Shown piece after piece: positions 29,876 to 64,000 of a stretch of 64,000 bases of DNA (within the stretch, counting starts at the first letter, position 1; the number at the start of each line of letters is the position of its first letter). Below the pieces are notes generated by a model. It did not search any database. It was not told where the DNA came from and saw nothing but the letters and a program-made list of their open reading frames with translations. Origin of the DNA: Bacteroidales bacterium SW299 (GTDB lineage: Bacteria; Bacteroidota; Bacteroidia; Bacteroidales; Bacteroidaceae); contig SDWH01000019.1 of assembly GCA_019550975.1 (NCBI GenBank), positions 1-64,000 of the forward strand. Reading direction: 5' to 3'. The translations under genes were made by a program, and so were the position numbers.

Positions 29876-29905
29876 TATAACATTCAGGAAACAAAAAACA
29901 CTTAC
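29876..29905 (-). promoter_or_regulatory. ECF-type promoter of the sigma gene
   Basis: On the minus strand: GTAAGTGTTTTT (29905-29894), 12 nt, GTTATA (29881-29876), 66 nt before the start codon. It is an exact match in both boxes to the susC promoter, which implies autoregulation. Confidence 0.75.
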
Positions 29906-30229
29906 AGAAGCAACTTAAAAAACGTCACGCACAATCTGGATAAAAGAAACCGACAGCACAAGCAACCTCAACGAGCCGGCAACTTCAGCGTAACGGATAA
30001 ACGATACGAAGGTTATCAAGTTATATTTCAAAAAAAGAGAATAAAGAAAAAGATGAATTTACACGATTATTCTTTCAGCACAACAGTACTTATAACAAAC
30101 ATACCAGCGCTTACACAAAAGCACCATGAGTCTATTAAATATAAGGAACAAGTATCCTCTCCCGAGATGTCGGACATGCAATCCTGCCATTGAATAAACG
30201 CTCTGTTTATTTCCAGTTATCACATTACA
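29906..30229. other. Intergenic region without recognised gene
   Basis: This AT-rich gap between the sigma promoter and the purA terminator shows no convincing coding frame, repeat or RNA. A 60-codon minus-strand frame (30059-30241) has no recognisable features and overlaps the purA terminator, so it is not called. Confidence 0.6.
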
Positions 30230-30281
30230 AATCAGGAGCAAAAGGCGATGCGTTCTATTCTGCCACCTTTTACTCCTGATT
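30230..30281 (-). terminator. Rho-independent terminator of purA
   Basis: A 16-bp stem with one mismatch (30230-30245 with 30266-30281, arms AATCAGGAGCAAAAGG and CCTTTTACTCCTGATT) and a 20-nt loop lies 9 nt after the purA stop on the minus strand. A short T-rich tail follows. Confidence 0.85.
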
Positions 30282-30290
30282 CGAAAACCA

Positions 30291-31559
30291 TCAGTCTATA
30301 TAACGTTCGATAGTCTGCTCTCTGTCCGGTCCGACAGAAACTATTTTAATTGGAGTTTCCAACTGTTCTTCAAGGAATGTGATATAAGCATTGAATTCTT
30401 CGGGGAACTCATCTTCACTGGTCATCTTTGTCATATCCGTCTTCCAACCGGGGAATTCCGCATAAACCGGCTCCACTCCTTCGCTGATATCATAAGGGAA
30501 ATAGTCGATTTCCTCGCCGTTTACCCGATAGGCTACACATGCCTTGACAGTATCAAAACCATCAAGAACATCACTCTTCATCAAAATCAGCTTGGTCACG
30601 CCGTTAATCATTATCGCATAGCGCAAAGCCACCAGGTCAATCCATCCGCAACGCCGTTCACGGCCGGTTACCGCACCGTATTCATGTCCCAGGTCACGAA
30701 TAGTCTTTCCTGTTTCGTCAAACAACTCCGTAGGAAACGGTCCGGATCCGACACGAGTGCAATAAGCCTTCATGATACCATAAACCTCACCGATTCTGTT
30801 CGGTCCGAGCCCCAGTCCCGTACAGGCTCCGGCACAAATTGTATTCGAAGAAGTAACGAACGGATACGAACCGAAGTCAACATCCAGCATTGTACCCTGA
30901 GCGCCTTCACAAAGGATGCTCTTTCCAGCCTTCAACAGTCCGTTCACTTCATGTTCACTGTCAACCAGATGGAATCCGCGCAAATAGTCAATGCCTTCCA
31001 TCCATTGCTTTTCAAGTTCCGTAATGTCATATTCATAGTTCAGGCTCTTCAGAATCTTTTCATGACGCGCCTTGGCTTCCGCATATTTTTCAGCAAAATT
31101 ATGAAGAATATCTCCCACACGCAGCCCGTTGCGGCTCACCTTGTCCGTATATGTCGGTCCGATACCCTTGCCCGTCGTTCCGACTTTTGCGTCACCTTTA
31201 GCCGCTTCATAAGCAGCATCCAGGATGCGGTGCGTAGGCAAAATCAGATGCGCCTTCTTTGATATGTGCAGACGTTCCTTCAACGGATGTCCGCTTGCCT
31301 CAAGCGCTTCAGCCTCAGCTTTAAACAAAGCCGGATCAAGTACAACGCCATTCCCGATGATATTTATCTTATCGCCTTGAAAGATTCCCGAAGGAATGGA
31401 ACGGAGCACATACTTCTGCCCTTCAAACTCGAGCGTATGACCTGCATTCGGTCCGCCCTGGAAACGGGCAACCACGTCATAGCGGGGGGTCAGCACGTCA
31501 ACGACCTTACCCTTACCTTCATCTCCCCACTGCAAACCTAACAAAACATCTACTTTCAT
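30291..31559 (-). CDS. purA: Adenylosuccinate synthetase
   Basis: A 422-residue cytoplasmic enzyme that joins IMP and aspartate with GTP, the first committed step to AMP. The N-terminal GTP-binding loop GDEGKGK is at residues 12-18. NAGHTLEFEG, GTTGKGIGPTYTDK and TGRERRCGWID are family signatures around the IMP and GTP sites. Length is normal (420-430). It starts 11 bp after the fur gene stop, so the two are probably cotranscribed, and it ends in a strong terminator. Confidence 0.98.
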   Translation of the reverse strand: MKVDVLLGLQWGDEGKGKVVDVLTPRYDVVARFQGGPNAGHTLEFEGQKYVLRSIPSGIFQGDKINIIGNGVVLDPALFKAEAEALEASGHPLKERLHISKKAHLILPTHRILDAAYEAAKGDAKVGTTGKGIGPTYTDKVSRNGLRVGDILHNFAEKYAEAKARHEKILKSLNYEYDITELEKQWMEGIDYLRGFHLVDSEHEVNGLLKAGKSILCEGAQGTMLDVDFGSYPFVTSSNTICAGACTGLGLGPNRIGEVYGIMKAYCTRVGSGPFPTELFDETGKTIRDLGHEYGAVTGRERRCGWIDLVALRYAIMINGVTKLILMKSDVLDGFDTVKACVAYRVNGEEIDYFPYDISEGVEPVYAEFPGWKTDMTKMTSEDEFPEEFNAYITFLEEQLETPIKIVSVGPDREQTIERYID

Positions 31560-31570
31560 GATTCTCTGTT

Positions 31571-32050
31571 TTATGTATTTTTCGTTATATTATTTTTCTT
31601 GCGCTTCATTCCCATGCACTTGCTGCAGAGTCCATAGATATACAGCGAATAATGCGACGCATGAAATCCTTTCAGCTTCGTTTCAGCGATGGCCTGCTTC
31701 AGGTTCTCATCTTCAAATTCTGACACTTTTCCACAGCAAGTGCAAATCATATGATGATGGGTTTCATTGTTATACGAACGTTCGTATTGGGAAGTGTTTC
31801 CAAACTGGTGCTTTATCACCAGTCCAGCATCAATCAGCAGAATGATCGTGTTGTAGAGCGTTGCACGGCTGACACGGAATTTTTCCTTATCAGCCATGTA
31901 AATATACAGACTGTCTATATCGAAATGCCCTTTGATCGAATAAATCGTATCAAGTATCGCATAACGTTCAGGAGTCTTGCGATGTCCGTTCTTCTGCAAA
32001 TAATCAGTCAGTATCTGCTTTACCTTATCTTTTATATCCTCTTCCATCAT
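31571..32050 (-). CDS. Fur/PerR-family metal-dependent regulator
   Basis: A 159-residue transcription factor. A winged helix (about 15-90, containing RVSRATLYNTIILLIDAGLV) is followed by a dimerisation domain with a structural zinc site of two CxxC pairs (Cys103/106 and Cys142/145) and a His cluster HHH at 98-100. It may sense iron or peroxide; the sequence does not decide between Fur and PerR. Two adjacent ATG codons are possible starts. Its own promoter lies at 32067-32097 and purA follows by 11 bp. Confidence 0.92.
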   Translation of the reverse strand: MMEEDIKDKVKQILTDYLQKNGHRKTPERYAILDTIYSIKGHFDIDSLYIYMADKEKFRVSRATLYNTIILLIDAGLVIKHQFGNTSQYERSYNNETHHHMICTCCGKVSEFEDENLKQAIAETKLKGFHASHYSLYIYGLCSKCMGMKRKKNNITKNT

Positions 32051-32066
32051 TCAACTGTTCAGCGTT

Positions 32067-32097
32067 CAAAGTTAACCTTTTTTGCGTAATATAGAAA
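32067..32097 (-). promoter_or_regulatory. Bacteroides-type promoter of fur-purA
   Basis: On the minus strand: TTTC (32097-32094), 19 nt, TAACTTTG (32074-32067), 17 nt before the start codon. It matches the -33/-7 consensus TTTG and TAnnTTTG with one mismatch. Confidence 0.6.
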
Positions 32098-32099
32098 GA

Positions 32100-32771
32100 T
32101 TATAGACTATATTCTATCTCATTTTTTATTTCCCGGGCAGCAGCAGCCATTTCCGGCTTCTCCGATTTCTGAAGGGGTCCCAACAGCTTCATCATTTTCT
32201 TTGCCTGCATACGGCTTTGCAGAGCCAGCTTGCATAACGAAGCAGAAGCGGCTCTTTTGATCCATGCAGAATCCCCCTCAACGGCTGCGAAAGCCTGGTC
32301 GGTAAACTCCGCCTCGGCACGTTCGTCAAGCTTGAGGCCGTTAGCCAGCAGGCGGGTCATCAGCAGGAAGCCGCACAAACGGAAATACTCACGGTCGTCC
32401 GCAATCCACCTGAACACGACTTCCGAAGCATAAGGCAGACGCTGGAACAGCGTCATCACAGTATATTCAGCCAGTTCCAGACAGGACATGTCATCCATCC
32501 ACATTTCAGCAATCTCCGGATAAAAAGTTTCGGCCGGCTGCAACATGCCTGCCATGATCTTGCACTCGCGTATATCTTCCTTCCACAAAGCCTGGGCAAG
32601 TGCATGGTCCGGCTTATAAGCGGAAGCGATTTCTTTCAGCCGGGGATATTCAATGCCGAATATCACCTTGTACTTCATTCCCTTGTCGCGCAAGCTCTGC
32701 GAAACCGTACCGTTCATGAACAGACGGAACTTCGACTTTATATCTTTTATCGTTTCATGTATATCATTCAT
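32100..32771 (-). CDS. DNA alkylation repair (AlkD-like) HEAT-repeat protein
   Basis: A 223-residue soluble protein made almost entirely of amphipathic helices in HEAT-like pairs, with the pattern of the DNA alkylation repair family (AlkC/AlkD-like): YPRLKEIASAYKPDHALAQALWKED near the N-terminus and WIKRAASASLCKLAL near the C-terminus. AlkD homologues excise bulky or cationic alkylated bases, but many Bacteroidetes members are uncharacterised and may lack activity. It lies 51 bp after the DPP III gene on the same strand. Confidence 0.75.
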   Translation of the reverse strand: MNDIHETIKDIKSKFRLFMNGTVSQSLRDKGMKYKVIFGIEYPRLKEIASAYKPDHALAQALWKEDIRECKIMAGMLQPAETFYPEIAEMWMDDMSCLELAEYTVMTLFQRLPYASEVVFRWIADDREYFRLCGFLLMTRLLANGLKLDERAEAEFTDQAFAAVEGDSAWIKRAASASLCKLALQSRMQAKKMMKLLGPLQKSEKPEMAAAAREIKNEIEYSL

Positions 32772-48643: not shown

Positions 48644-50632
48644 TTAAAGCAAATTCTTCAGACGGTCGATCAACTCATTACCCAATTCCGTCTTCACCTT
48701 GATATGCTCAAGCACGGCGGTAACAAACGGATTGCTTTCAAACACTCCGCGCACCTCCTCAAAATCCCGCACTTGCTCTTCTCTGCTTCCGTCAGCACCG
48801 AATCCGGTCATTGAAGTCAGTGAAAATTCTTTCTTGGCATCTTCATAAACCAACTTGTCAAGCCCGACAACGGCTTCCTGCCACCTTCTTACAATAGCCA
48901 CAACATCTTTTGCCGTGACAGTATCCGGATCCAGATGATAAAACTCCAGTATCTTACCATAAGCCCATGTCCATTCATAGATGTAATAATTGGCATGCAT
49001 TTCGGCAAACCGCGCATGAATTTCATCCACAGTGGTCAGCGTTCCGCTTTCAATATCGTCCATCAGACGCTCAATTTCACTCTTCGGAGCAATCAGCCCG
49101 GAAACGTCCACCCATTCGCCCTCACCCACCGAAGTGTCCGGCAGCAAGCGGCGGCGGATCTCCTCATCACTTCCGAAAGACTTTATTTCCAGACGTTTGA
49201 TAATAGAGTTTCCGAGGAACTTATGTATGGCGGTTTCATAAAACTTAATGCCATTGTTCAAAGAAGAATTCTTTATTTTCGCACTCTGATACGAATAAAT
49301 CTCCGATGTTTCTCCCGACACACGCGCCAGTTCCTTCAAGATATTCCGCCCTACCATCATTTTCTGAATAGTATACGGACTGAGCAAATTATAATTGATC
49401 TGATCCAGTTTGCAAGGATCCTTGCGCTGGTCGCGCTTCGGCCATTTCTGCGCATCACGAATCGTACCAACACTGCGCAGATTCACTCCAGGCACCAGAT
49501 AAGTGGTATTCTTGTCTTCTATCAGATAAGAAAACGGCAGATTCGACGTATCCGGATGAGCGACATGACGCCCCATAACCAACGAAAACGCACCGATACG
49601 CGCAGGCCACAGAATATACGAATCGGATGTCGTTTTCGCTCCCCGCTCAAGCGCACCCTGATGAATGGGGCCCAACTTATACATATGGTTGCTTTGGTTC
49701 GAACCGGAACCGGCGTTCATGAACGAGAACATGCCGGCAATAAGCAAAGTCGATTTATGGTGAGTCACCGTAAACGGACCTGCAAAAATAGCACATGCCT
49801 CACCGTTTTCTTCCTGGCAATTGCTGAAGAAAAGCGAATCAGAAGCAGAATAAGTATGTCCCAGATGACAGGCCTGCCCCACAAAACAACGGGCAAGCAT
49901 TGTGCCGTCCTCCACATGCGAACCGCTCGAAATGATAAAATCATCGCAAATAACTCCATATCCGATATGTACCGGGGCATACTGGTTGCTGTTCACACTA
50001 CCGTTTTTCAAGCGGCCCGCACCTTCTATCTGGCAATAATCTCCGATGCGCACATTCTTTATATAACCGGAATTGACAATCGTGACATGGCTTCCGATCG
50101 TTCCGGTTGCAGAGGCGTGCCTCTCGGCATAATCCTCTACAATCCGCTTCATCCGCTCAATCAGTTTGGGGCGGTGGCGATACAGTGCCATGATATATGC
50201 CTGGTGTGCAGACAAACGGTCGTGAATATACACCTCACGCCCGCCAGTTTCATTCAGCACAGATACTTCTACACCATTCCCAAACCGGCTCCGTCCATCC
50301 ACAAGGATAATATCCACATTCTCGATGAATGTGCTGTCGCCAATCTCATAATTGGCGATATAATTCTTCACATTTTCGATATAGCAGTTATCACCGACCA
50401 CCACATTATATAATGTAGCATAATACAGTCCGGAATGTTTGGTTATCCCTCCGGCAAGCCTGAACTCCTTATCAAAGCATCCCAGGCGGATTTCTCCGGA
50501 AAAACGGATATGATGTATATGGTCAGGACGGAAACCATCCGTCACCTTCACCATACTCCAGTCGGAAGCCATGCAGTGCTGCGCTTCCAGCCGTGAGATT
50601 TCTTCAGCCGTAAGTGAACGATATTGCTTCAT
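48644..50632 (-). CDS. DUF4954 family protein with left-handed beta-helix
   Basis: A 662-residue cytoplasmic protein; the opening YRSLTAEEISRLEAQHCMASDWSMVKV is typical of DUF4954 in Bacteroidetes. Residues about 60-330 show hexapeptide repeats of a left-handed beta-helix (VVVGDNCYIENV, IGDYCQIEGAG, SSGSHVEDGTMLARCFVGQ), as in acyl- and nucleotidyl-transferases; the C-terminal third is helical. The substrate is unknown. The start overlaps the hflX stop by 4 bp (ATGA), implying translational coupling. Confidence 0.85.
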   Translation of the reverse strand: MKQYRSLTAEEISRLEAQHCMASDWSMVKVTDGFRPDHIHHIRFSGEIRLGCFDKEFRLAGGITKHSGLYYATLYNVVVGDNCYIENVKNYIANYEIGDSTFIENVDIILVDGRSRFGNGVEVSVLNETGGREVYIHDRLSAHQAYIMALYRHRPKLIERMKRIVEDYAERHASATGTIGSHVTIVNSGYIKNVRIGDYCQIEGAGRLKNGSVNSNQYAPVHIGYGVICDDFIISSGSHVEDGTMLARCFVGQACHLGHTYSASDSLFFSNCQEENGEACAIFAGPFTVTHHKSTLLIAGMFSFMNAGSGSNQSNHMYKLGPIHQGALERGAKTTSDSYILWPARIGAFSLVMGRHVAHPDTSNLPFSYLIEDKNTTYLVPGVNLRSVGTIRDAQKWPKRDQRKDPCKLDQINYNLLSPYTIQKMMVGRNILKELARVSGETSEIYSYQSAKIKNSSLNNGIKFYETAIHKFLGNSIIKRLEIKSFGSDEEIRRRLLPDTSVGEGEWVDVSGLIAPKSEIERLMDDIESGTLTTVDEIHARFAEMHANYYIYEWTWAYGKILEFYHLDPDTVTAKDVVAIVRRWQEAVVGLDKLVYEDAKKEFSLTSMTGFGADGSREEQVRDFEEVRGVFESNPFVTAVLEHIKVKTELGNELIDRLKNLL

Positions 50633-51888
50633 TGTTCGTCGTCGTAAGTTTGATACAAAAAGTCATTATAAGGATACTTCTGCACATGAAGCTGCTTTAC
50701 CTTCTTGTACAGCAACGCGCGGAATTCTTCCAGATTGGTCTTCTCCCGTGCAGAGATAAAGATGCAGTTATCATCCAGCTTCGCCATCCATGTACGCATC
50801 AGTTCATCCAGCGTAATGTTTTCTTTCGTCCTGGGAGTCAGATCATCCTCGTCTTTCTCTATATAAGAGTAAGCGTCAATCTTGTTGAAGACAATCATGG
50901 TCGGCTTTCCGCCCGCTCCGATATCAGCTACCGTTTTGTCGACCACCTGAATCTGTTCTTCAAAGTCGGGATGCGAAATGTCAACCACATGCACCAGCAA
51001 ATCCGCTTCGCGAACTTCGTCCAGCGTCGATTTGAACGAATCGACCAAATCGGTAGGCAGTTTGCGTATGAAACCTACTGTATCCGAAAGGAGAAAAGGA
51101 AGATTCTCTATTATCACTTTACGGACAGTCGTATCGAGAGTAGCAAAAAGCTTGTTTTCTGCAAAGACATCACTTTTTGCCAGCAGGTTCATCAGTGTCG
51201 ATTTTCCCACATTCGTGTATCCCACGAGCGCAACACGGATCAGACGACCGCGATTCTTACGCTGTGTAGACTTCTGCGTATCTATTTCCGCCAAACGCTG
51301 TTTCAACAGCGACATGCGGTTCAGAATAATACGGCGGTCCATTTCGAGCTGCGTTTCACCGGGACCGCGAAGCCCTACCGAACCTTTTCCTCCGCCCGCA
51401 CCGGAGCCTCCGCCCTGACGTTCCAGGTGAGTCCACAACCGTTGCAGGCGTGGCAGCATATATTTATATTGTGCCAGTTCCACCTGCGTCTTGGCGTTTG
51501 CAGTCTGCGCGCGCATTGCAAAAATGTCCAAAATCAATGAAGTCCGGTCCAGAATCTTCACGTTCAATTCTTTCTCGATGTTTCTGATCTGTTTCGCAGA
51601 AAGTTCATCATCAAAAATCACCATTCCGATCTCAGTGTCTTCGCTTTCATTCTGCACAGCCAAATACTCCTTGATTTCCTGCAGTTTACCTTTTCCCACA
51701 TAAGTTACAGAGTTGGGAGTGTCGATTTTTTGCGTAAAGCGTTTCACAACCTCCGCCCCTGCCGTTTCTGCGAGGAAAGCCAGTTCGTCCAAATATTCGT
51801 TCGTCTTGCGTTCATTCTGAGTCTGCGTAATCAAACCCACCAGCACAGCCTTTTCGGTCTGCGCGTCAGATATAACAAATTCTTTCAT
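50629..51888 (-). CDS. hflX: Ribosome-associated GTPase HflX
   Basis: A 419-residue GTPase that splits or rescues stalled ribosomes. The N-terminal HflX domain (about 15-190) includes FDDELSAKQIRNIEK and a Gly-rich linker (GGGSGAGGGKGSVGLRGPGETQLE). The G domain (about 205-375) has the P-loop GYTNVGKST, G3 DTVGFIRKLP and G4 NKID. Length is normal. It is the first gene of the operon with DUF4954 and the TlpA-like gene. Confidence 0.96.
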   Translation of the reverse strand: MKEFVISDAQTEKAVLVGLITQTQNERKTNEYLDELAFLAETAGAEVVKRFTQKIDTPNSVTYVGKGKLQEIKEYLAVQNESEDTEIGMVIFDDELSAKQIRNIEKELNVKILDRTSLILDIFAMRAQTANAKTQVELAQYKYMLPRLQRLWTHLERQGGGSGAGGGKGSVGLRGPGETQLEMDRRIILNRMSLLKQRLAEIDTQKSTQRKNRGRLIRVALVGYTNVGKSTLMNLLAKSDVFAENKLFATLDTTVRKVIIENLPFLLSDTVGFIRKLPTDLVDSFKSTLDEVREADLLVHVVDISHPDFEEQIQVVDKTVADIGAGGKPTMIVFNKIDAYSYIEKDEDDLTPRTKENITLDELMRTWMAKLDDNCIFISAREKTNLEEFRALLYKKVKQLHVQKYPYNDFLYQTYDDEQ

Positions 51889-53191: not shown

Positions 53192-54805
53192 TTATCGCGA
53201 GCCTTTTGCCCACCAAACATTTTCAGTAAACACATACTGTCCGTTTCCATAGGCTTCCTGTACATTCGGATTGGCGCTGACTTCATCGCTGCCATAAGGT
53301 GCTCTCAATGGAAATTTTCCCGGATTTTCCAAAGAATATACATCACGCCCTTCCGCTTTCAAACGACGGACATCATTGTATGCCTCTGTTGTTTCTCCAT
53401 TGGCTCCCCACATAGCTATATATTTCTGAATCATCGTTTCTCCCAGCGGATCTGCATCAAACAACGGCGATACATTCGTATCAAAGTAGTTCTCGGCGTC
53501 ACTCGCTGTCAATGCAGATGTAGAATTGGGCCGAACCGGCACTACCGTATTTGCCAAGGCATTCTGAACGTTTTCTTCCGTATTCAACATTCCGGCAACA
53601 ACAGCCTCCTTGAGAGCCGTTTTCGCTTCGGATATACGGTTCAGACGAACCAAAGCCTCAGCTTTCAGAAAGAGCAGTTCATGATAGCTCATAAGGTAAG
53701 TGGGCGCACTGGCAGCCATCAGGAAAATAGAAGTATTGTAATATTCCTGCGACTGCTGCAACGTTTCGCCTCCGTTGGGCGCCATCATCGACATGAAATT
53801 AGCCTCTGTACCATCCAGCTGTTTGCAATAATACGGACTAGGCAGCGTAGCGTCGGCACCGATGGCATCTACATACACCCGATGCAGACGAGGATCCTGA
53901 CGTTCCTGCAACTTTTTCGCCATGCTGGTGCTGGCTGCCGTATATTCACGGCTTGTAAAGAAGTCGAACAGCGGATTTATGTTCACATTCCCGTCATATT
54001 CCGTAAACTCAGCCTGTTCGTCTGCGCTCTGAAACGAATTGTCAACATAAGTCAGCACATTATTCAGTGCAGCTGTCTGATCTTCCGTAACATTCAGCAA
54101 ACGCATAGCATACCGTGCCTTCAGTCCATAAGCAAGTTTCAGCCATTTCTGAGCATCTCCATTAAATAGAATGTCTTGAGAACCGACAGGACCGCTTCCA
54201 TGATTGTCTCCCTTCGGCAGATCCTCTATCGCATCGTCCAAATAATCGTTTATTGCCGTATAGATGCTTTCCTGCGAATCGACTTCCGGAGTCATGTATT
54301 GAGGCTTTCCGTTATCCAGCTGAGCCAATGCAGCCTGCGAATAAGGCGCATCGCCAAACGCATCCGTTATCAATGCCGAGTTGATAGCCGCCAGCACTTC
54401 ACCCATTCCTTTTGTAGTATAATTTTCAGGCTGTGTTCCAGTTTCCGAACATTTGTCAATAATAATGCGGGCATTTTTCAAAGTGGCATAAGTGTTGCCC
54501 CATATATTATTGAAAGTAGACGAAGAATAAACCTCTGCTACACGCATCTCCGCATTATACAACTGATTGAAAACGCCCACCTCCTGCTCTATATAAGAAG
54601 CAAAATAATGATTAAAGTCACCTCCTATATTGCTGAAGGCCGTAGAAGTGACAGCATCTGTCAGGATAAACTTGGCATCCATGCTGTGAGGATTGTCAAT
54701 GTCCTGATTGATTCTGTCCATTTTGTCTTCAGAACAAGAAAGTATCATACTGCCCATCAATACCGCAGACAGACAGATTCTTATGTTTTTATATGCAATC
54801 TTCAT
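53192..54805 (-). CDS. SusD-like lipoprotein (partner of the currently silent SusC)
   Basis: A 537-residue lipoprotein (signal ending ILSC, then SEDKMDRINQD). NGDAQKWLKLAYGLKARYAMRLL and DAFGDAPYSQAAL place it in the SusD-like_2 type group, unlike the SusD on the right side (62876), which is of the RagB type. It follows the left susC by 12 bp. With the central segment in the present orientation no promoter faces this pair, so it is predicted to be poorly expressed. The ligand is unknown. Confidence 0.92.
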   Translation of the reverse strand: MKIAYKNIRICLSAVLMGSMILSCSEDKMDRINQDIDNPHSMDAKFILTDAVTSTAFSNIGGDFNHYFASYIEQEVGVFNQLYNAEMRVAEVYSSSTFNNIWGNTYATLKNARIIIDKCSETGTQPENYTTKGMGEVLAAINSALITDAFGDAPYSQAALAQLDNGKPQYMTPEVDSQESIYTAINDYLDDAIEDLPKGDNHGSGPVGSQDILFNGDAQKWLKLAYGLKARYAMRLLNVTEDQTAALNNVLTYVDNSFQSADEQAEFTEYDGNVNINPLFDFFTSREYTAASTSMAKKLQERQDPRLHRVYVDAIGADATLPSPYYCKQLDGTEANFMSMMAPNGGETLQQSQEYYNTSIFLMAASAPTYLMSYHELLFLKAEALVRLNRISEAKTALKEAVVAGMLNTEENVQNALANTVVPVRPNSTSALTASDAENYFDTNVSPLFDADPLGETMIQKYIAMWGANGETTEAYNDVRRLKAEGRDVYSLENPGKFPLRAPYGSDEVSANPNVQEAYGNGQYVFTENVWWAKGSR

Positions 54806-54817: not shown

Positions 54818-57808
54818 TTAAAAAGTGAAAGTTAATCCAAAGCCATAGCTTGAAGATCCCGGCAGAGAGAAGCGTTCAAAAGCTCCGGCCATATTGTTGT
54901 TTCCTAAAGTTGCCTCCGGATCCAGTCCCGGCAATTGCGACCAGATGAGGATATTCCGCGCAAACACGTTTGCTGATATCTTCAGATAATCTTTATCCAA
55001 CACCGGATAGCTCAGCGAGATCTCACGCAACTTGATATAAGAGTTGTCATAAACAGAGGCTTCATCGATAGAGTTCATCGCATTGAAGTATGCATAGGCA
55101 TTTTCTCCTTTAATCTTGATGTCATTCGGAGAATATGTACCGTCGGCATTCTGCTTCACTGCCGGTTTCTCGAACAAGAACTCGTCCATGTTCCGGATGT
55201 CGGCAGAATGCTGGGTCACGCCGTAATAGTCAAGCACTCCCAACGTGCCGCTGTAGATCTGCCCGCCCTGCTTCCAGTCAAGCACAGCCGACAAGCGGAA
55301 CTTGTACAGTTCCAGAGTCGTATTGAATCCCAGGCGGAAATCCGGTGAGATCTTACCGATAACCTGCGGCTCTCCGGCCTGCGGCATACCGTTCTCATCC
55401 ACAACGATATCTCCATTCTCATTGCGCAAAAAGCCTGTACCGTAGATTACGGGGAACTTGTCTCCGATGCTTGCACGAACCTGCGGAGTAACAAATCCTC
55501 CCAACATGATGCTCTGCACTCCATCAGCCAGCTTGTCTACATAATTATCTATCTTTGAGAAGTTAAATCCAAAGTCCCAATATACATTTTTCCTGTCTAT
55601 CGGTTTGACCGTCAAAGTCAGTTCATGGGCATTGGTGTGGATAGAACCTCCATTTGTCACCATTTCGCTATAACCGGTAGAGGTAGAAAGAGGAACAGCA
55701 AAGATCTGATCCTTGACATTCTGGCGCGAATAAGTATAGTTCAACGAAACCAGGCCATGCCAGAAAGCCAAGTCCAATCCGATTTCATATGATTTCGTGT
55801 TCTGCGGTTTCAGATTCGGATCATAAACCCTATAATAAGGAATATAAGATGTTACCGATCCGAACGGATACTGGATGGGCGTACCGGCAGAAAAGCCTCC
55901 ACCATAAGCGGGCACAACATACAAGTTCTCGACATATTCTCCTGCCATACCTACTTCGGCATACGACCCTCTGATCTTTCCGAAAGTCAGCACATCATTC
56001 TGAAGAGCAGGAAGCTCAGTGAATATCCACCCCAATGAAACCGAAGGATAAGTAAACGAACGGTTTCCGCGAGGCATTGAAGACACTCTGTCGTTTCTTA
56101 CCGTAGCATTCAGATACAGCATGTTTCTCCATGACAATGAAAGATTTCCGAAATTACCGACCGTACGTCTTTTCGTTGTGCTTTGTCCCGACTGGAAAGT
56201 GGTGGCGTTGCCGATATTGTTCCAGCCCGGGAAATTGAAGTTATATCCTTGTGCCGTGGTGACACGTGTGCTTTTATCCACCCACTCATTACCGTACATC
56301 AGGTTAAAATCAAAATCCTCGCTGATTTTCCAGTCATAGGTAACCGTAAGCAGAGAGTTCATTTCAGTTATCTGATAATCATCCTGGCGGGAATATCCCG
56401 TACTGTAACTTCTGTCACCATATCCGTAATTATCCGAATAGATGGTGCTGTAGGCATCCGCTCCCAACTGATACCTTGCGGTGAGGCTGTGATTGTCAGT
56501 GCCGAAGTCAGTGTTATACTGCACATAAGCGTTACCGAAAAAGCGCTGTGAACGCTCTACGAACGAATTGTTTTCTGTCGCCCAGTAAGCGTTGTTGAAC
56601 GTTGAAGGACGATAATTGTTCTGCGTATAAGGATCCCCGTCGATGTGAGAAGGGATTCCGTTGAAGTCATAGCTTGACGGTGCTCCATAAACAGTTGCAA
56701 CAATACCTTCGTTACCCGAGCTTTGCTTCTTGATTTTTGAAGTGATAAAATTACCGCTGAATCCGGTAGTCCAGTTTTTCGTCAGATTTGCCGTCGCGTT
56801 CAACTTCACATTGTAACGGTCCATACCTGTATTCGGAATAATTCCGTCTGAGGTGTTGTTACCCAACGAGAAAGAATAATATCCTTTGTCAAAAGCCTGA
56901 GAAACATTGACATTGTTGCTCCAGGAAACGCCCGTATTGAAGAATTCCTTTGCATTGTCATAAGCCTGAGGCACAGCCCAAGGATCCAATCCGGCCGCTG
57001 CCCGCTGCGGAACATAGTACATTCCTTCGTGCATTCCGTATTGCTGCGTATAGGCATTGCTTACATTTCCACCATACGTAGCATCATTGGCCAGTTCAGA
57101 TATTTTGGGTCCCCATGCAGTCGAAGCGTTCGGATCAAACACGCCGTTCATGCCTTGAGCGTATTCTTTCTGAAATTCAGGCAATGTAGAAACCTTGTCA
57201 AAAGACAAGTTCGTCTTAAATGTCACGCTCGGCTTGCCCTTAGAAGCCCCTTTTCCGCTTTTAGTGGTAATGACAATGACACCGTTTGACGCACGCATCC
57301 CATAAAGTGCAGAGGCAGCTTGCCCCTTCAATATATTAATGCTCTCAATGTCATTCGGGTCCAAGTCTACAGCACGGTTTGCAAAGTCCGCGCCAGCCAC
57401 ACTTCCTGTATTTCGCGCATCCGTGTCAATATCAGCAGCCGAAGAAATAGGCATTCCGTCAACGACATACAATGGCGTATTGTCACCTGTAAATGAGCGC
57501 ACACCACGAATCACAATTTGTGACGATGCACCTGGCATACCTGACGAAGGGGTAATATCCACGCCCGACACTTTTCCCTGCAATGCAGAAGAAAGGCTTG
57601 TGCTTGCAGCCTGGGTCAACTGCTCACCCTTCACATCTTGCACTGCATAGGCCAGCGCCTTTTTCTCTTTCGATATTCCCATCGCCGTAACGACCACTTC
57701 ATCCAGCATCTCATCGTCCGATTTCAGCACTACGTTTACAACCGGCTTGATATCAACTTCCTGCGTCTGCAACCCGATGAACGAAATGATCAAAGTACCG
57801 GCCGAACT
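54818..57808 (-). CDS. SusC-like TonB-dependent transporter, 5'-truncated silent allele
   Basis: An open frame of 996 residues from the repeat boundary: SSAGTLIISFIGLQTQEVD, then the rest of the carboxypeptidase-regulatory domain, the TonB plug and a full beta-barrel ending in GLTFTF. Signal peptide and first 67 residues are missing, and there is no ATG upstream before an in-frame stop. Its first 92 bp are identical to codons 68-98 of the right-hand susC. Inversion of 57809-59972 would supply promoter and residues 1-67 in frame, giving a 1063-residue protein. The frame is fully open, so it is a stored, switchable gene, not a decayed one. Confidence 0.93.
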   Translation of the reverse strand, partial: SSAGTLIISFIGLQTQEVDIKPVVNVVLKSDDEMLDEVVVTAMGISKEKKALAYAVQDVKGEQLTQAASTSLSSALQGKVSGVDITPSSGMPGASSQIVIRGVRSFTGDNTPLYVVDGMPISSAADIDTDARNTGSVAGADFANRAVDLDPNDIESINILKGQAASALYGMRASNGVIVITTKSGKGASKGKPSVTFKTNLSFDKVSTLPEFQKEYAQGMNGVFDPNASTAWGPKISELANDATYGGNVSNAYTQQYGMHEGMYYVPQRAAAGLDPWAVPQAYDNAKEFFNTGVSWSNNVNVSQAFDKGYYSFSLGNNTSDGIIPNTGMDRYNVKLNATANLTKNWTTGFSGNFITSKIKKQSSGNEGIVATVYGAPSSYDFNGIPSHIDGDPYTQNNYRPSTFNNAYWATENNSFVERSQRFFGNAYVQYNTDFGTDNHSLTARYQLGADAYSTIYSDNYGYGDRSYSTGYSRQDDYQITEMNSLLTVTYDWKISEDFDFNLMYGNEWVDKSTRVTTAQGYNFNFPGWNNIGNATTFQSGQSTTKRRTVGNFGNLSLSWRNMLYLNATVRNDRVSSMPRGNRSFTYPSVSLGWIFTELPALQNDVLTFGKIRGSYAEVGMAGEYVENLYVVPAYGGGFSAGTPIQYPFGSVTSYIPYYRVYDPNLKPQNTKSYEIGLDLAFWHGLVSLNYTYSRQNVKDQIFAVPLSTSTGYSEMVTNGGSIHTNAHELTLTVKPIDRKNVYWDFGFNFSKIDNYVDKLADGVQSIMLGGFVTPQVRASIGDKFPVIYGTGFLRNENGDIVVDENGMPQAGEPQVIGKISPDFRLGFNTTLELYKFRLSAVLDWKQGGQIYSGTLGVLDYYGVTQHSADIRNMDEFLFEKPAVKQNADGTYSPNDIKIKGENAYAYFNAMNSIDEASVYDNSYIKLREISLSYPVLDKDYLKISANVFARNILIWSQLPGLDPEATLGNNNMAGAFERFSLPGSSSYGFGLTFTF
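57717..57808. repeat. 92-bp inverted repeat, left copy (recombination site)
   Basis: Perfect reverse complement of 59973-60064, checked base by base, with identity ending abruptly at both ends. It lies within the coding sequence of the left susC. It marks the left crossover region of the invertible segment. Confidence 0.97.
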
Positions 57809-58077
57809 GAAAAATAGTGTATATTGCTGGACTACAGCATTTTGCCTCTGCCGTGAAGAACTGGATTTCTATTGAAAGTCAGTCTGGAAAGATATCCATG
57901 GAAGCGTTGGTACGCATGTCTTCTACCCATTTCTTTGCGTATTTCAGACAAAGAAAGAGCAACTCGTTGATTTCGTTTTCGCATGTGCTTTGTGCTCTTT
58001 TGGGCCATTTCTGTTTCTGTTCTTCGTCAGACTATATGCTTGATTGAAACAGGTTAAACGTTGCAATTAATTTTATT

Positions 58078-58187
58078 CGTTATCTTGACTAAAAGACCGC
58101 GGTCTTTCACTTAAAATTACCCGTCATCTTAATCAAAATTATCCGTCATCTTAATCAAGATTACCCGTTATTTTAAATTGCAGATTG
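58078..58187. repeat. 22-bp-period tandem array (about 5 units)
   Basis: Units start at 58078, 58100, 58122, 58144 and 58166. The third and fourth (CGTCATCTTAATCAAAATTA, CGTCATCTTAATCAAGATTA over their first 20 bases) are nearly identical, while the first, second and fifth have diverged. A perfect 16-bp palindrome AAAGACCGCGGTCTTT (58092-58107) spans units 1 and 2. The array lies 100 bp beyond the recombinase stop, inside the invertible segment. Possible roles are recombinase or regulator binding. Confidence 0.75.
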
Positions 58188-58287
58188 CACTCATTCAAAT
58201 CATGCTTGACAAATTCATCGAATTCAAAACGATTCCTTTATATTGTCTGCCGTTGCATTCTATTTTCAAATGCGCCGGCTCGAAGTT

Positions 58288-59454
58288 TTAGAATTTACAT
58301 TTCTTCAAGTCATTGACAATTGTTCCCGAAAATATTTCGCCGTAACCTTGGGTCGTCTTTACATTGCGATGTCCCAACAGCTTCTGCACCGTTGTTATCT
58401 GCGCTCCCAAGTAAATCAACAAGGTTGCGTTCGTATGGCGGGCGGTGTGGAAAGAGAAATGCTTACCGAGTTTCGCAAGTCCTGCTATGCCCGCAAGATC
58501 TTTATTTACAGAAGAATTCAGTTTCAGATTGAAAAAAGAATTGAGTTTGTTTCTGTATCTGTACAATATATCGGCTGCCTTTCCGTTGAAAAGCAAATAC
58601 AATGGTATGCTGACCTCCGTGCCTGTCTTGACAGTTTTAAATTTCAGCCAAAGTTTTCCGTTCAGCCGGATAATGTTATTGGCTGAAAGATGCGTAAAAT
58701 CAGAGTATCTGAGTCCGGTATAGCAACAAAAAAGAAAAGCATCGCGTGAATGTTCCAACTTTTGATTTTTTCCTGCCAGTTCGAGATTCTCTATCCGCTT
58801 CAATTCATCGGGCAATAGAAATGTGTGTCTGCTAGCGCCCGTTTTGATGACATATTTTTTAAAAGGATAACTTCCTTGGCTCATATAGTTCCGTTTGATT
58901 GCTTCGTTTACAATGCTGCGCAAATGGCGCATGTGTTTGGCTATAGTGTTAATGCCATAAGCCTTTTCCTTTTGCATGAAACATTCGAAATTCTGGAGAA
59001 AATTATAGGTAATGTCATCAAACGAAGCTGAAGGGGCGAATTGCTCCAGTACATCCAATGTGGTCAGGATATTCTTTTTCGTGCTTTCTTTTTTCATTGA
59101 GTTCTCTACCCATTTTCTACCGAATCCGGCAAACAAGTTTGAATCGTCATTGATATCGCTCGGGCTTTGCTTAAAAAACGAGAGCGAAACAGGCATTCCT
59201 TTCTTCCATAGTTCAAGTTCTTTCCACTGCAATTTCAGAATCATTTCGTCAAGCATTCTGTTGAGTTCTTCCATTTGCGGATGTGAAACGATTTCCTTCT
59301 TTTTATTGTCCCATTGAAAGGGAAATACATAAATGTGCGTCGAAATGTAAACTTTGCTTTTGTTCAAATATAATTCAACCTGAATCAGTGCTTTACCTTG
59401 CGCGTTTAACTTCTTTTTACGATTGAATACCAAGCGGTAGCTTATTTTGTCCAT
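58288..59454 (-). CDS. Tyrosine site-specific recombinase (probable SusC invertase)
   Basis: A 388-residue recombinase. Residues 1-95 form an Arm-DNA-binding domain, about 105-205 a SAM-like core-binding domain, and 215-388 the catalytic domain with the complete set Arg249 (GLRYSD), His336 and Arg339 (HTARH), His362 (GHRN) and nucleophile Tyr371 (QGYGEI). It lies inside the segment bounded by the 92-bp inverted repeats and so would flip with it. Similar integrase-type enzymes sit between susC genes in B. fragilis and B. thetaiotaomicron, where they invert promoters. The AT content is higher than in the flanking susC genes. Confidence 0.93.
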   Translation of the reverse strand: MDKISYRLVFNRKKKLNAQGKALIQVELYLNKSKVYISTHIYVFPFQWDNKKKEIVSHPQMEELNRMLDEMILKLQWKELELWKKGMPVSLSFFKQSPSDINDDSNLFAGFGRKWVENSMKKESTKKNILTTLDVLEQFAPSASFDDITYNFLQNFECFMQKEKAYGINTIAKHMRHLRSIVNEAIKRNYMSQGSYPFKKYVIKTGASRHTFLLPDELKRIENLELAGKNQKLEHSRDAFLFCCYTGLRYSDFTHLSANNIIRLNGKLWLKFKTVKTGTEVSIPLYLLFNGKAADILYRYRNKLNSFFNLKLNSSVNKDLAGIAGLAKLGKHFSFHTARHTNATLLIYLGAQITTVQKLLGHRNVKTTQGYGEIFSGTIVNDLKKCKF

Positions 59455-59704
59455 AATGATATTGATTAAAAAATAGGATTGAAAAAAGATAAAAACAACG
59501 GATATGCAATGGTTTTATTTATAAATTAAAAGTTAATGTTCAAATAGCTCATGCAGACACAATATTTGCGCCAAATAATTTTATATGCAAGAAATATTCA
59601 CCGCAAAACGTGTATTTGGAAGAAAAATCGCGATAAAAGTGTTAAAAAGCAGTTTTTTGGATACATTTCTTGGAAAATGGTACAAAAGTTTGAAAATATA
59701 TTTC

Positions 59705-59712
59705 TATTTTTG
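59705..59712 (+). promoter_or_regulatory. Promoter -7 box of the expressed susC, inside the invertible segment
   Basis: TATTTTTG matches TAnnTTTG, 59 nt before the ATG. A TTTG at 59689-59692 is too close (12 nt) to be an ideal -33 box, so the upstream element is uncertain. The box is within the invertible segment and would serve whichever susC faces it. Confidence 0.55.
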
Positions 59713-59771
59713 CAAACTGTTAGAGTGAATAAATTTTATTAATGTAAAGTTAAACTTTAAGAGAGGTTTTT

Positions 59772-62700
59772 ATGAAAAGAAAATTGATGCTGTTAATGGC
59801 CTGCCTGATGATAGGTATAGGTCTGGTAAACGCTCAAGTCAAGAAAGTGACAGGGCATGTCACATCTGACGAAGACGGTTTACCTGTAGTGGGCGCATCA
59901 GTATTGGTAAAAGGTACTACAGTTGGTACCGTTACCGACATTGATGGTAATTTTACACTGAACAACGTGCCAAGTTCGGCCGGTACTTTGATCATTTCGT
60001 TCATCGGGTTGCAGACGCAGGAAGTTGATATCAAGCCGGTTGTAAACGTAGTGCTGAAATCGGATTCAGAGGTGCTGGACGAAGTAATGGTGGTAGCGTA
60101 CGGCACTGCAAAGAAGTCCTCGTTTACAGGGTCAGCAACCAACATCCATGCCGACCAAATAACATCAGGATCACGCGAATCTATCGACAAAGCACTCAGC
60201 GGAAAAGTAACTGGTGTCCGCATTGCATCAGCTACTGGCGACCCGGGATCCATGGGTGAAATGAATATCCGCGGTGTAGGCTCTATCAACGGTTCTACCA
60301 CTCCGCTTTATGTCATCGACGGAGTGATAATGAAATCGGACAATGACATGAGCTATTACGGAAAGTCACAAAGCGTATTGAGCACGCTGAATCCGGACGA
60401 TATCGAAAGCATGACCATCCTGAAAGATGCAGCTGCCGCTTCTCTGTATGGCTCGCGCGCAGCCAACGGCGTGGTAATCATCACAACAAAGAGCGGAAAG
60501 GAAGGAAAAACCCGCGTATCCTACAATGGAGAAGTGGGCTGGAACAAAATGGCTGTCAACCAGTTCGAGATGATGAACGCTACAGACTACAAGAATTACG
60601 TACGCGAAGCCGTAGCCAACTACTACATGGAGCATGAAGGATTTACAGACAAGAATGCCGCATACACAGCAGCAGACACTTACAACGGAGATCCGACACA
60701 GAATGTAGGAGTCGGTGATTTCCTGTACGACACAACCGGAAAATACAGCACGAACTGGAAGGATGAAATCTACCGCACGGCAGTTACTCAAAACCATCAG
60801 GTATCGTTGAACGGCGGCAATCAGAATACGAGATTCTATGCCGGATTCGGCTACAACAAAAGCGAAGGAATCGTATTGGGCAGTGATTTCCAACGTATAT
60901 CAGGCCGCATCAATGCAGACCAGAAAATCACTGACTGGGCTGACTTTTCTGTAAAACAGATGATTGCATCGACAACGCAGAACGGTTTCCGCGATCAGAA
61001 TGACCAGGCGCAAGGACTCGGAACAAGTTCGCCGCTAGGCATCTTGTTCGCCATGGACCCGACTGCTCCCGTAAAGAACGAAGACGGAACCTACAACGAA
61101 AACGCAGGTTACGGACAGGTGAGCAATCCACACCTGATGTTAGGAGGCAAGGACAGCGACACCGCTATGGAATGGATTCAAAGCAAGATGTTCCGCAGCA
61201 TGACCAACGCCGAACTGAGCCTGCACTTCCTTGACAAGATATTCTTCCGCTCAGTCTTCGGATACGACTACATCGACAACAAACATTTCGAATATTGGGA
61301 CCGCGACGGGGTCAACGGAGCATCTGTAGGCGGCATGGGTACCCGCTATACATTTGAAAACTCTACGCTGACCAGCTCAAACACTTTAACTTATACGGAC
61401 ACTTTCAAGGAGAAGCACAACTTGTCTGTTCTGTTGGGATTTGAATTGGAGAACCAGAACCTGCTGTCTATCGTAACAGTGGCGCAGAACTACTCAAACC
61501 ATCTGCCTGAATTGTCTAACGGACAGCCTTCACAAGCATCCAGCAGCACATACGGTTCGGGCATGCTGTCTTACTTCGGCAATGTGAACTATAACTTTGA
61601 CGACAAGTATTATCTGTCTGGAAGCTTCCGTCGTGACGGATCTTCACGCTTGAGCAAAGACAACCGCTGGGCAAACTTCTGGTCTATTTCTGGAGCATGG
61701 CGCCTGAGCAAGGAAGGATTCATGGAAGACATGCCTTTGTTTACAGACTTCAAGCTGAAACTTTCATACGGAACAAACGGCAATCTGCCGACTGACTATT
61801 ATGGCTACAAAGACCTGTATATGGGTTCTGGTTATGGGAACAATCCTGCAATCTACTGGTATCAGTTGCCGAACGAAACGCTGACATGGGAAAAATCAAA
61901 AAACCTGAACGTAGGATTTGAATGGAACATGTTCAACCGCGTAACTTTAAGCGCTGAATATTATCTGAAGAAAACAACCGATTTGCTCTTCAATGTCCCC
62001 ACTTCATACGTAACCGGCTTCTCCAGCAAATGGGACAATCTGGGTGAACTGAAGAATGATGGTGTAGAAATTGAAATTAACTCCAAGAATATCATCCACA
62101 AAGATTTTACCTGGAACACCAACTTCAACCTGACCTATCAGCGCAGTATCGTAGAAAAGCTTCCGGACGGAGAAGACATCCAGTATGGTGACGGACAGAT
62201 GTATATACACCGCGAAGGTGAATCAATGTACAGTTTCTACCTGCCGGAATGGAAAGGCGTGAACCCCGAAACGGGATATGGAGAATTCTGGATAGACCCG
62301 AATGACCACTCGAAAGGAACAACCACCAACTATAGCGAGGCTCAGTGGGGCATTGTAGGAAAAGCGCTGCCTGATGTAATGGGTGGTATGACCAATACGT
62401 TTACCTACAAAGATTTCGATCTTTCATTCCTGATCACGTATCAGTTTGGAGGTGACATGTTTGATTATCCGAGCTATTTCTCGCATCACGACGGATACCG
62501 CCTTGGTTCAATGGTGCCCGAAGCGGATGTAGCCGGAAATTACTGGACACAGCCGGGAGACGTTGTAGACAATCCGAAACCTGTTTACGGAGGAGCCTCC
62601 ACCGGACGTTCGGACCAGTTCTCAAGCCGTCACATCAAGTCGACAGACAATATCCGCCTGCGCGAACTGACAGTGGGCTACAACATCCCTATTTCCAATA

Positions 62701-62861
62701 AATACATCAACCGTCTGCGCGTGTATTTCCGTGCCAACAACCTTGCCATGATTTGGGCAAAGACCAAGCATGTGGATCCGGATGTTGCCATCAACGGATA
62801 TCGTCAGGCAGATACACCTCAGCTGAAAAGTTGCGTATTCGGTATTAATATTGAACTTTAA
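59772..62861 (+). CDS. SusC-like TonB-dependent transporter, expressed allele
   Basis: A complete 1029-residue outer-membrane transporter: signal peptide (1-22, ending VNAQ), carboxypeptidase-regulatory-like domain (about 24-110), plug starting at VLDEVMVVAYG, and a beta-barrel ending in CVFGINIEL. No STN domain, unlike the SusC at 25660, so it does not signal to an ECF sigma. Codons 68-98 are the right copy of the 92-bp inverted repeat; codons 1-67 are in the invertible segment and shared by turns with the left susC. A SusD gene follows by 14 bp. The substrate is unknown. Confidence 0.95.
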   Translation: MKRKLMLLMACLMIGIGLVNAQVKKVTGHVTSDEDGLPVVGASVLVKGTTVGTVTDIDGNFTLNNVPSSAGTLIISFIGLQTQEVDIKPVVNVVLKSDSEVLDEVMVVAYGTAKKSSFTGSATNIHADQITSGSRESIDKALSGKVTGVRIASATGDPGSMGEMNIRGVGSINGSTTPLYVIDGVIMKSDNDMSYYGKSQSVLSTLNPDDIESMTILKDAAAASLYGSRAANGVVIITTKSGKEGKTRVSYNGEVGWNKMAVNQFEMMNATDYKNYVREAVANYYMEHEGFTDKNAAYTAADTYNGDPTQNVGVGDFLYDTTGKYSTNWKDEIYRTAVTQNHQVSLNGGNQNTRFYAGFGYNKSEGIVLGSDFQRISGRINADQKITDWADFSVKQMIASTTQNGFRDQNDQAQGLGTSSPLGILFAMDPTAPVKNEDGTYNENAGYGQVSNPHLMLGGKDSDTAMEWIQSKMFRSMTNAELSLHFLDKIFFRSVFGYDYIDNKHFEYWDRDGVNGASVGGMGTRYTFENSTLTSSNTLTYTDTFKEKHNLSVLLGFELENQNLLSIVTVAQNYSNHLPELSNGQPSQASSSTYGSGMLSYFGNVNYNFDDKYYLSGSFRRDGSSRLSKDNRWANFWSISGAWRLSKEGFMEDMPLFTDFKLKLSYGTNGNLPTDYYGYKDLYMGSGYGNNPAIYWYQLPNETLTWEKSKNLNVGFEWNMFNRVTLSAEYYLKKTTDLLFNVPTSYVTGFSSKWDNLGELKNDGVEIEINSKNIIHKDFTWNTNFNLTYQRSIVEKLPDGEDIQYGDGQMYIHREGESMYSFYLPEWKGVNPETGYGEFWIDPNDHSKGTTTNYSEAQWGIVGKALPDVMGGMTNTFTYKDFDLSFLITYQFGGDMFDYPSYFSHHDGYRLGSMVPEADVAGNYWTQPGDVVDNPKPVYGGASTGRSDQFSSRHIKSTDNIRLRELTVGYNIPISNKYINRLRVYFRANNLAMIWAKTKHVDPDVAINGYRQADTPQLKSCVFGINIEL
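59973..60064. repeat. 92-bp inverted repeat, right copy (recombination site)
   Basis: Perfect reverse complement of 57717-57808. It encodes residues 68-98 of the right susC (SSAGTLIISFIG through VLKSD). The reading frame is the same in both genes, so exchange keeps translation in frame. Confidence 0.97.
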
Positions 62862-62875: not shown

Positions 62876-64000
62876 ATGAAGAAATTACATTACATAGCAG
62901 CATTCGCACTGGGACTGGCCGCCGTTTCCTGCGATGTACTTGATAAAGAGCCCTCCAACTCATGGGAGTCCTCGACTGCCATTCAAAGCTATGATGATCT
63001 GGTGTATGCTGTAAATGGCGTATACGAAAGCCAGACAAGCGCCATAGACAACGGATCGAACTACAGGGGAAGTTATGCCGGCGACTTCACTCTCTACGCA
63101 GATATGAAAGGAAGCGACTACCAGTGCCTCGGAAACAATAATCAGGCAACCGATGTATCCAGGTATCAGGCCACTCCTTCAGGAAGCGTTTCGGCAGACA
63201 ACTTCTATAAACGGTTCTATCTTTCCATTGCACGCGTCAACAAAGTGCTGGAAGGAGTGAAAGAAGCAGGGCTTGAAGGAGAAGATGTAAACGCTCAGTT
63301 GGGCGAACTTTATGCGCTGAGAGCTTTATTCCATTTCGATTTGGCGCGTCTGTTCGCGAAACTTCCTTCTACAGTGGACGACTGGGAAAACGAACCGGGA
63401 ATCGTGCTTTCCCTGGAAACCCATGACTCGGACTACATAGGAACACGCTCCAGCCTGAAAGCTACTTACGAAGCGATTATCAGCGATTTAGGAACAGCCT
63501 TAGGTTATCTTCAGTCTGCTACCACAACGAATAACGGACACTTCAACTACTGGGGAGCTCTTGCACTGCGCGCCCGTGTGTATCTGTACATGGACAATTG
63601 CGGAGGAACAGACTATAACTCGCTTGCTCTTCAGGATGCTGAGGAGGTAATCGGTTCAGGCGTCTACTCTCTTTACGAAAGGGATGACTATGCAGGCGTA
63701 TGGGGCAGCGAATATACCTCAGAGAGCATCTTTGAAATTCAGGTAACTTCTCTCTACAATCCACAACGCAATTCGCTGGGATACTATACCCACGCAGAGG
63801 GCTATGCAGAAGCAGCACTGAGCACAAGTTTCCAGACCTTCCTGAACGAACACTCGGGCGACATCCGCAGCACAGTTGTGGCAACAGAACAGGATGGAAA
63901 CATCAGCGGCACTTTCTCGCAGAAGTATCCGGGACGTAACGGAGAGATTTACGTGAATAACCCAAAGGTTATCCGCCTGTCGGAAATGTACCTGATTGCA
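62876..64000 (+). CDS. SusD/RagB-like lipoprotein (partial, runs off the window)
   Basis: Starts at ATG 62876, 14 bp after susC, and stays open for 375 codons to the window edge. It has a lipoprotein signal ending AVSC (then DVLDKEP), and the RagB-type features SWESSTAIQSYDDLVYAVNG, AQLGELYALRALFHFDLARLF and YWGALALRARVYLYM. It should form the glycan-capturing lid of the adjacent SusC. It belongs to a different SusD subgroup from the left-side SusD, suggesting that the two pairs take up different ligands. Confidence 0.93.
   Translation, partial: MKKLHYIAAFALGLAAVSCDVLDKEPSNSWESSTAIQSYDDLVYAVNGVYESQTSAIDNGSNYRGSYAGDFTLYADMKGSDYQCLGNNNQATDVSRYQATPSGSVSADNFYKRFYLSIARVNKVLEGVKEAGLEGEDVNAQLGELYALRALFHFDLARLFAKLPSTVDDWENEPGIVLSLETHDSDYIGTRSSLKATYEAIISDLGTALGYLQSATTTNNGHFNYWGALALRARVYLYMDNCGGTDYNSLALQDAEEVIGSGVYSLYERDDYAGVWGSEYTSESIFEIQVTSLYNPQRNSLGYYTHAEGYAEAALSTSFQTFLNEHSGDIRSTVVATEQDGNISGTFSQKYPGRNGEIYVNNPKVIRLSEMYLIA

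Follow-up and report, generated by a model that had tools for sequence, protein, structure and literature searches.

A recombinase-linked locus with the anatomy of a DNA-inversion selector for SusCD transporters in Bacteroidales bacterium SW299, and its relatives in Bacteroides and Phocaeicola

The stretch of DNA analyzed in this study, hereafter the window, comprises 64,000 nucleotides (nt) of Bacteroidales bacterium SW299 (assembly GCA_019550975.1, contig SDWH01000019.1, positions 1 to 64,000) and is part of contig C11 of an assembly of 3.87 Mb in 64 contigs. It very probably carries a two-way DNA-inversion selector for SusCD transporters, in which the recombinase, the promoter, and the leader travel together. 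Two opposed susCD pairs flank a segment of approximately 2.2 kb containing one tyrosine recombinase gene, a single promoter-like element, and the 5' end of one susC gene (67 codons). An earlier reading of the bare sequence (the original prediction) had proposed that this locus selects between two transporters. The architecture, the reading frames, and the inversion observed at related loci support this proposal, and for the strain of the window itself such switching is likely.

The right susC gene (59772–62861, plus strand, 1029 amino acids (aa)) is complete, features CarboxypepD_reg-like, Plug, and barrel domains, and lies in the expressed orientation, as judged by position. It is followed by the right susD gene (475 aa, plus strand; 62876–64000 in the window, with its end at contig position 64303). 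On the opposite side, the left susC body (54818–57808, minus strand; 991 aa counted from a TTG codon at 57793) is found in the silent orientation next to its partner, the left susD gene (53192–54805, minus strand, SusD-like_2 domain). The left SusC has no signal peptide and is missing the initial portion of the N-terminal domain. Its homology to SusC proteins starts only at the repeat, as had been predicted, while the frame stays open for about 57 nt beyond it, up to a stop at 57869.

The perfect 92-bp inverted repeat within the two opposed susC genes was confirmed at the predicted coordinates (left arm 57717–57808, minus strand; right arm 59973–60064, plus strand), and a repeat of this length is far beyond chance. 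At 95% identity, the arms extend to 113 nt (57696–57808 and 59973–60085). Each arm contains a core site AGTTCGGCCGGTACTTTG, located at 57791–57808 (minus strand) on the left and at 59973–59990 (plus strand) on the right, with the crossover expected in the first 11 nt (57798–57808 and 59973–59983, respectively). The 18-nt core pattern AGTTCNGCNRRNACTYTG has exactly two matches in the 3.87-Mb assembly, both of them at this locus and in opposite orientation, and the same pattern read backwards, used as a control, had no match in the assembly. Since the frames match, as the original prediction stated, inversion in silico yields a left SusC of 1063 residues in frame, and the right gene becomes leaderless.

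Both SusC proteins scored above the cut-off of NCBIfam TIGR04056 (368.25), with 546.6 bits for the left and 852.4 bits for the right one. By sequence, the closest solved structures were BT_2264 for the left and RagA for the right SusC, and 3fdh and 3mcx for the left and right SusD, respectively. BT_2263-64 and RagAB have been linked to peptides, so that peptide as the substrate of the two pairs is a weak guess.

The complete elements expected between the repeats were likewise present. The recombinase open reading frame (ORF; 58288–59454, minus strand, 388 aa), which is part of the invertible segment, is complete and features the domains Arm-DNA-bind_5, SAM-like, and Phage_integrase. The residues R249, K276, H336, R339, H362, and Y371, which we take to be the catalytic residues, are present and invariant in an alignment of 13 sequences. 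A putative promoter element TATTTTTG (59705–59712, plus strand), identified by its consensus, matches TAnnTTTG 67 nt before the ATG of the leader. Between the two, a conserved palindrome TAAAGTTAAACTTTA (59745–59759, plus strand) is located in the 5' untranslated region (5'-UTR). The leader itself (59772–59972, plus strand) represents the single susC 5' end within the segment; its 67 codons encode the signal peptide and the beginning of the N-terminal domain.

According to the mechanism proposed here, the recombinase encoded at 58288–59454 would recombine the core sites AGTTCGGCCGG at 59973–59983 and 57798–57808, turning the segment of about 2.2 kb with the recombinase gene itself, the promoter, and the 67-codon susC leader. 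The susC body adjoining the leader would then form a complete gene, to be expressed and exported together with its susD partner, and the opposite susCD pair would be left without promoter and signal peptide. In the present state, the right (RagA-like) pair would be switched on, and after inversion the left (BT_2264-like) pair. The benefit may lie in a mixed population differing in uptake and surface exposure; the original prediction had suggested that nutrient uptake or the exposure to phages and immunity might be varied.

At E ≤ 1e-60, relatives of the recombinase were found in 44 out of 100 genomes searched (the window's own genome included), all 44 belonging to the genus of the window, which contributed 60 of the 100 genomes. 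A first named scan with the recombinase alone as the query retrieved no relative, and the named scan using the 13-sequence alignment yielded 219 encoding stretches out of 287, of which 80 were kept, mainly from Phocaeicola and Bacteroides. The window and these 80 of the 219 form the set of 81 loci, to which some genomes contribute two and in which L148 and L150 duplicate a single locus, owing to the overlap in B. fragilis Q1F2 described below. A leader-bearing susC gene, divergent from the recombinase and at most 1 kb away from it, was detected in 65 of the 81 loci, and a leaderless susC gene after the 3' end of the recombinase in 60. Both kinds were present in 56 loci, only the leader-bearing one in 9, only the leaderless one in 4, and neither in 12; by these distances, 69 out of the 81 loci have a susC gene alongside the recombinase. 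At least two leaderless cassettes occurred in 20 loci. The window's genome has two strict core matches, in contrast to the three or more cassettes of a multi-cassette shufflon.

Part of the incomplete loci coincide with the ends of the available sequence. Of those showing the leader-bearing gene only, L119, L126, L133, and L135 run on for less than 1 kb past the 3' end of the recombinase, and all four leaderless-only loci have less than 660 bp 5' of it. L108 (P. barnesiae), also a locus with the leader-bearing gene only, is a contig of 5561 bp with both ends consisting of a 110-nt inverted repeat, as would fit an assembly interrupted by the switch. The other loci with the leader-bearing susC only, L147, L157, L161, and L163, extend for 3–9 kb and are less easily accounted for, though the contig of L161 ends in a repeat copy. 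L134, L155, and L170, where neither susC kind was found, were left unsorted. L120, L123, and L141, likewise among the 12 with neither kind, represent a second relative of the recombinase (51–53% identical) with no susC found nearby, the same genomes carrying a further relative linked to susC; these enzymes likely have another target.

The position of the crossover was deduced by comparing the leader-bearing (ON) with the leaderless (OFF) susC gene of the same locus, numbered after the window's right susC, so that nt 202 is position 59973 of the window, where the repeat has its outer edge. The ON and OFF calls rest on a hidden Markov model of the leader built from the ON genes of the same locus set, and the profile was derived from 76 of 77 pairs. 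Up to nt 201, where it was 0.24, the identity between ON and OFF genes was no higher than between genomes; at nt 202 it rose abruptly to 0.97. From nt 202 onward, an 11-nt core, AGTTCnGCnrr, was identical in 73 of the 77 pairs. Among these core-matched pairs, identity set in at nt 202 in 56 cases, 1 nt earlier in 10, and 5–9 nt earlier in 7. The variable core positions 207, 210, 211, and 212 agreed within loci (0.97, 0.97, 0.99, and 0.99, respectively), compared to 0.33, 0.43, 0.53, and 0.58 in the mismatched control between genomes; third codon positions at 255–270 reached a within-locus agreement of just 0.51–0.67. A core that is the same within a locus and variable between genomes suggests a strand-exchange region requiring a match, and the crossover most likely falls in the initial 11 bp of the repeat (59973–59983 and 57798–57808), the core probably being the recombination site. 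P. plebeius DSM 17135 (L106) is of separate interest, as its ON and OFF cores are unequal, and this locus may be a locked switch.

The silent cassettes do not look decayed, because the core site was in frame in all 73 of them and, wherever the 3' end is complete (55 cassettes), at least 900 aa are encoded. Furthermore, the core pattern was found in 41 of the 60 genomes of the window's genus, with two matches of the backwards pattern over all 60. It was present in 37 of the 44 genomes with the recombinase versus 4 of the 16 without it (Fisher p 3.6e-5, based on a hand tally). A genome inferred to be P. vulgatus ATCC 8482 (G011) carries six core sites with the same spacer over 25 kb (2388974–2413749), one directed against the other five, which reads as a larger selector.

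Inversion was seen when related loci with the same neighbours were compared. In B. acidifaciens DSM 15896 (L138) and a closely related metagenome-assembled genome (L140), the shared outer flanks (98.4–98.9% identity) are swapped relative to the recombinase segment, which is itself 98.2% identical, and the second cassette differs. The same swap was detected between L128 and L129 (flanks 93.7% and 94.4% identical) and between L177 and L178 (87.2% and 79.7%). In B. fragilis Q1F2 (NZ_CP018937.1), the first 47,236 bp recur at the end of the sequence (5148905–5196111) in the same direction with 99.6–99.7% identity, which appears to be an untrimmed circular overlap of 47 kb. The one large difference between its two copies is the inverted stretch 22989–32148, which shows 2 mismatches over 9160 nt, takes in a second silent cassette, and has its ends in 113-nt repeats holding core sites. 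This is most simply explained by a mixture of both orientations in the culture that was sequenced, and a misassembly at the repeats might produce the same picture. Because the breakpoints fall inside the 113-nt repeats, the crossover is placed only to within these repeats.

Both orientations were also recovered at a shared chromosomal address. In the window, a DUF4954/DUF6819 gene (48644–50632, minus strand) and an HflX-like GTPase gene (50629–51888, minus strand; presumably HflX and termed hflX here) are located on the silent side. At many relatives of the recombinase, an HflX-like GTPase gene and a DUF4954 gene likewise mark one side of the address, and the other side consists of a gene for a coiled-coil lipoprotein, a TP_methylase gene (which we take to be RsmI, hence rsmI), and a thymidine kinase gene, as assigned with Pfam. 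After 29 duplicates had been dropped from 118 loci, 48 of the 89 distinct loci showed at least one of these sides (hflX and/or rsmI) in the stretch examined. The gene hflX or its neighbour was found on the ON side in 19 loci and on the OFF side in 12; for the rsmI side, the corresponding numbers were 21 and 13. Both sides were present in 17 loci and invariably lay opposite each other, 8 of these loci having one orientation and 9 the other; excluding the six loci without susC, the numbers were 5 and 6, the window being among the 6.

Comparison of the 59 ON genes of at least 800 aa (out of 65) indicated a constant leader joined to variable bodies, with the leader averaging an identity of 0.77, the body 0.34, and the recombinase 0.55. 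Identity in the leader tracked that in the recombinase (Mantel rho 0.58, 0 of 2000 permutations), and body identity did not (rho -0.05, 1593 of 2000 permutations). Bodies at least 75% identical over at least 700 nt occurred in opposite states in 27 gene pairs and in the same state in 31; the 27 include five special cases, namely, the Q1F2 duplicate (2), L118 with a separate leader-bearing gene away from the recombinase (2), and L155, where the leader escaped detection (1). The motif TAnnTTTG, presumably the Bacteroides -7 consensus, was located 50–75 nt ahead of the leader's start codon in 64 of the 65 loci versus 20 of 709 bins further upstream, and the 14-mer AAAGTTAAACTTTA of the 5'-UTR palindrome region was exact in 46 of the 65 loci. 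One leader and one promoter, the latter called by its consensus, thus face alternative bodies in the same frame, as in a shufflon.

A wider and tentative reading, for which the chances are somewhat below even, is that the site between hflX and rsmI represents an ancient expression slot maintained by vertical inheritance in Bacteroides and Phocaeicola. Recombinase, promoter, conserved 5'-UTR, and 67-codon leader might then form a constant module inherited as a unit, into which unrelated susCD bodies could be loaded, exchanged between species, and inverted, with the short spacer of the core possibly acting as a compatibility code that determines the expression of incoming cassettes.

Several observations weigh against the two-way selector proposed for the window. 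The assembly of the strain shows one orientation, and the recombinases of the loci with the most direct evidence of inversion are just 52–53% identical to that of the window. A protein cluster identical to the window's recombinase has 91 members, with the longest contig reaching only 2,050 bp. The surveyed loci are not phylogenetically independent. One or both of the susC genes are missing in 25 of the 81 loci; in about nine of these, the sequence stops near the recombinase, and contig ends do not account for others such as L147, L157, and L163. Six of the 25 (L125, L130, L132, L136, L137, and L122) have the recombinase alone between the usual neighbours, without any susC, five of them in genomes without any match to the core pattern. 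The strict pattern was likewise missing in 7 of the 44 recombinase-bearing genomes. A matched core was lacking in 4 of the 77 pairs, i.e., L104 (one mismatch), L106 (a different core), and L162 and L175 (no site found), the second susC of L175 being split into two frames. The support is also slightly reduced by the Q1F2 breakpoints lying in a 113-nt repeat and by 41 of the 89 distinct loci showing no shared neighbour in the stretch examined.

The agent of inversion may be questioned as well. With the window's recombinase included, its genome has 20 Arm-DNA-bind_5 matches, so that 19 further matches could act on the core site, and excerpts of the B. fragilis literature report Tsr0667 at three SusC/SusD clusters and nine other regions (PMC4747536). 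A scenario in which a different recombinase encoded in the genome does most of the flipping in trans, with the local gene in a lesser role, is nevertheless improbable, given that the core pattern and the recombinase family co-occur in the genus and that the family adjoins the site at most of the 81 loci. The local recombinase is the likely agent in the two-way selector. A static or fossil arrangement would imply a single past duplication of the 5' end, a left susC surviving as a silent remnant, and a segment that has stopped inverting in this strain. It would fit the single assembled orientation, the mismatched cores of P. plebeius L106, and the six relatives without an adjoining susC. We regard it as very improbable in view of the perfect 92-bp repeat, the left frame being open to full length, the complete recombinase, and the same-neighbour loci in both orientations. 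Most improbable of all is that the variation arises by homologous recombination or gene conversion involving the silent and the expressed bodies, with the recombinase being incidental: identity often reaching well past the core (81 more identical nt in the window; the longest exact run in other pairs measuring 11–113 nt), which site-specific exchange alone leaves unexplained, bodies varying independently of leader and recombinase, and the loosely placed Q1F2 crossover speak for it, but the 5' edge of identity lies at, or at most 9 nt from, nt 202 in 73 of 73 core pairs, the core is identical within loci and variable between them, and a susC gene stands beside the recombinase in 69 of 81 loci. 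Homologous recombination may act in addition to the recombinase, homogenizing the 3' part of the repeat and producing the identical stretch beyond the core.

The remaining features of the segment and its surroundings were inspected as well. The spacer between the recombinase stop and the silent arm (57809–58287) contains a 22-bp tandem repeat at 58113–58176. A role of these repeats as arm sites of the recombinase was not supported, since related sequences are scattered genome-wide and the length of the spacer varies between loci; short pieces of the stretch 57972–58220, including the array, have 30 further matches in the genome. No Rfam RNA was identified in the segment, the sole match (mir-137) being below the gathering score and taken as chance. 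Interpretation as a polysaccharide-utilization locus was discarded, as no carbohydrate enzyme was recognized among the neighbouring ORFs (lists read by eye, Pfam on eight flank proteins), and so was a simple mobile element with the recombinase as its integrase, because the repeats are inverted and the same neighbours are kept in 48 of the 89 loci. To the right of the thymidine kinase gene, contig C11 contains an ORF of 225 aa with an Arm-DNA-bind_5 domain only (67362–68039; 11363–12040 of L054), overlapped on the opposite strand by a MatE-family ORF; it is probably a broken integrase gene.

The locus offers a precise, testable crossover site and a recognizable module consisting of leader, core, and recombinase with a frequent hflX–rsmI address. 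Long reads or metagenomes could reveal the state of the switch across many Bacteroides and Phocaeicola species, and locked strains could address what selects one transporter, be it food, phage, or host immunity. The switch may furthermore explain why some assemblies break or do not close at this locus, as for L108 and Q1F2. The codon-68 site, the co-inherited leader, and the hflX–rsmI slot were not encountered in the excerpts of the literature searched, and they are not claimed to be unpublished.

Programmed inversions altering genes (Milman 2023) and intragenic inversions (Chanin 2024) reportedly form a general class of events that alter coding sequences. Within it, the assignment of the locus to the established SusC/SusD shufflon kind, as known from B. 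fragilis and B. thetaiotaomicron, is well supported, since it has inverted sites inside two susC genes together with a recombinase gene of predicted activity. That recombinase-linked SusC inversion is known in Bacteroides, as the original prediction had stated, agrees with the available excerpts on B. fragilis shufflons, where recombinase-mediated inversion brings alternative susC/ragA–susD pairs to one expression point (PMC4747536, PMC11852207, PMC5729914). The likeness to the B. fragilis SusC/SusD shufflons (Tsr0667; region EE of NCTC 9343) consists in alternative susCD pairs at one expression point. In region EE, as described there, the repeats overlap the start codon downstream of an invertible promoter, whereas in the window the crossover is likely located at codon 68. 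Tsr0667, compared here by its description only, is reported to act at many places, whereas leader, promoter, and recombinase move together in the window. A nutrient-receptor shufflon of B. thetaiotaomicron was described, in the portion of the source available, as phase-variable, one having shifted after exposure to phage ARB25 (PMC12548429); it resembles the window, by description rather than by sequence, in the choice between nutrient receptors. Further accounts of such inversions, likewise available in part, are given in PMC11892184 and PMC12632263. In gut metagenomes, invertible regions in or near susC/susD-like genes were reported, in the excerpt at hand, to differ in orientation between patients with inflammatory bowel disease and controls (PMC10939037); these regions, likened by description and not matched to the locus of the window, concern the same kind of gene.

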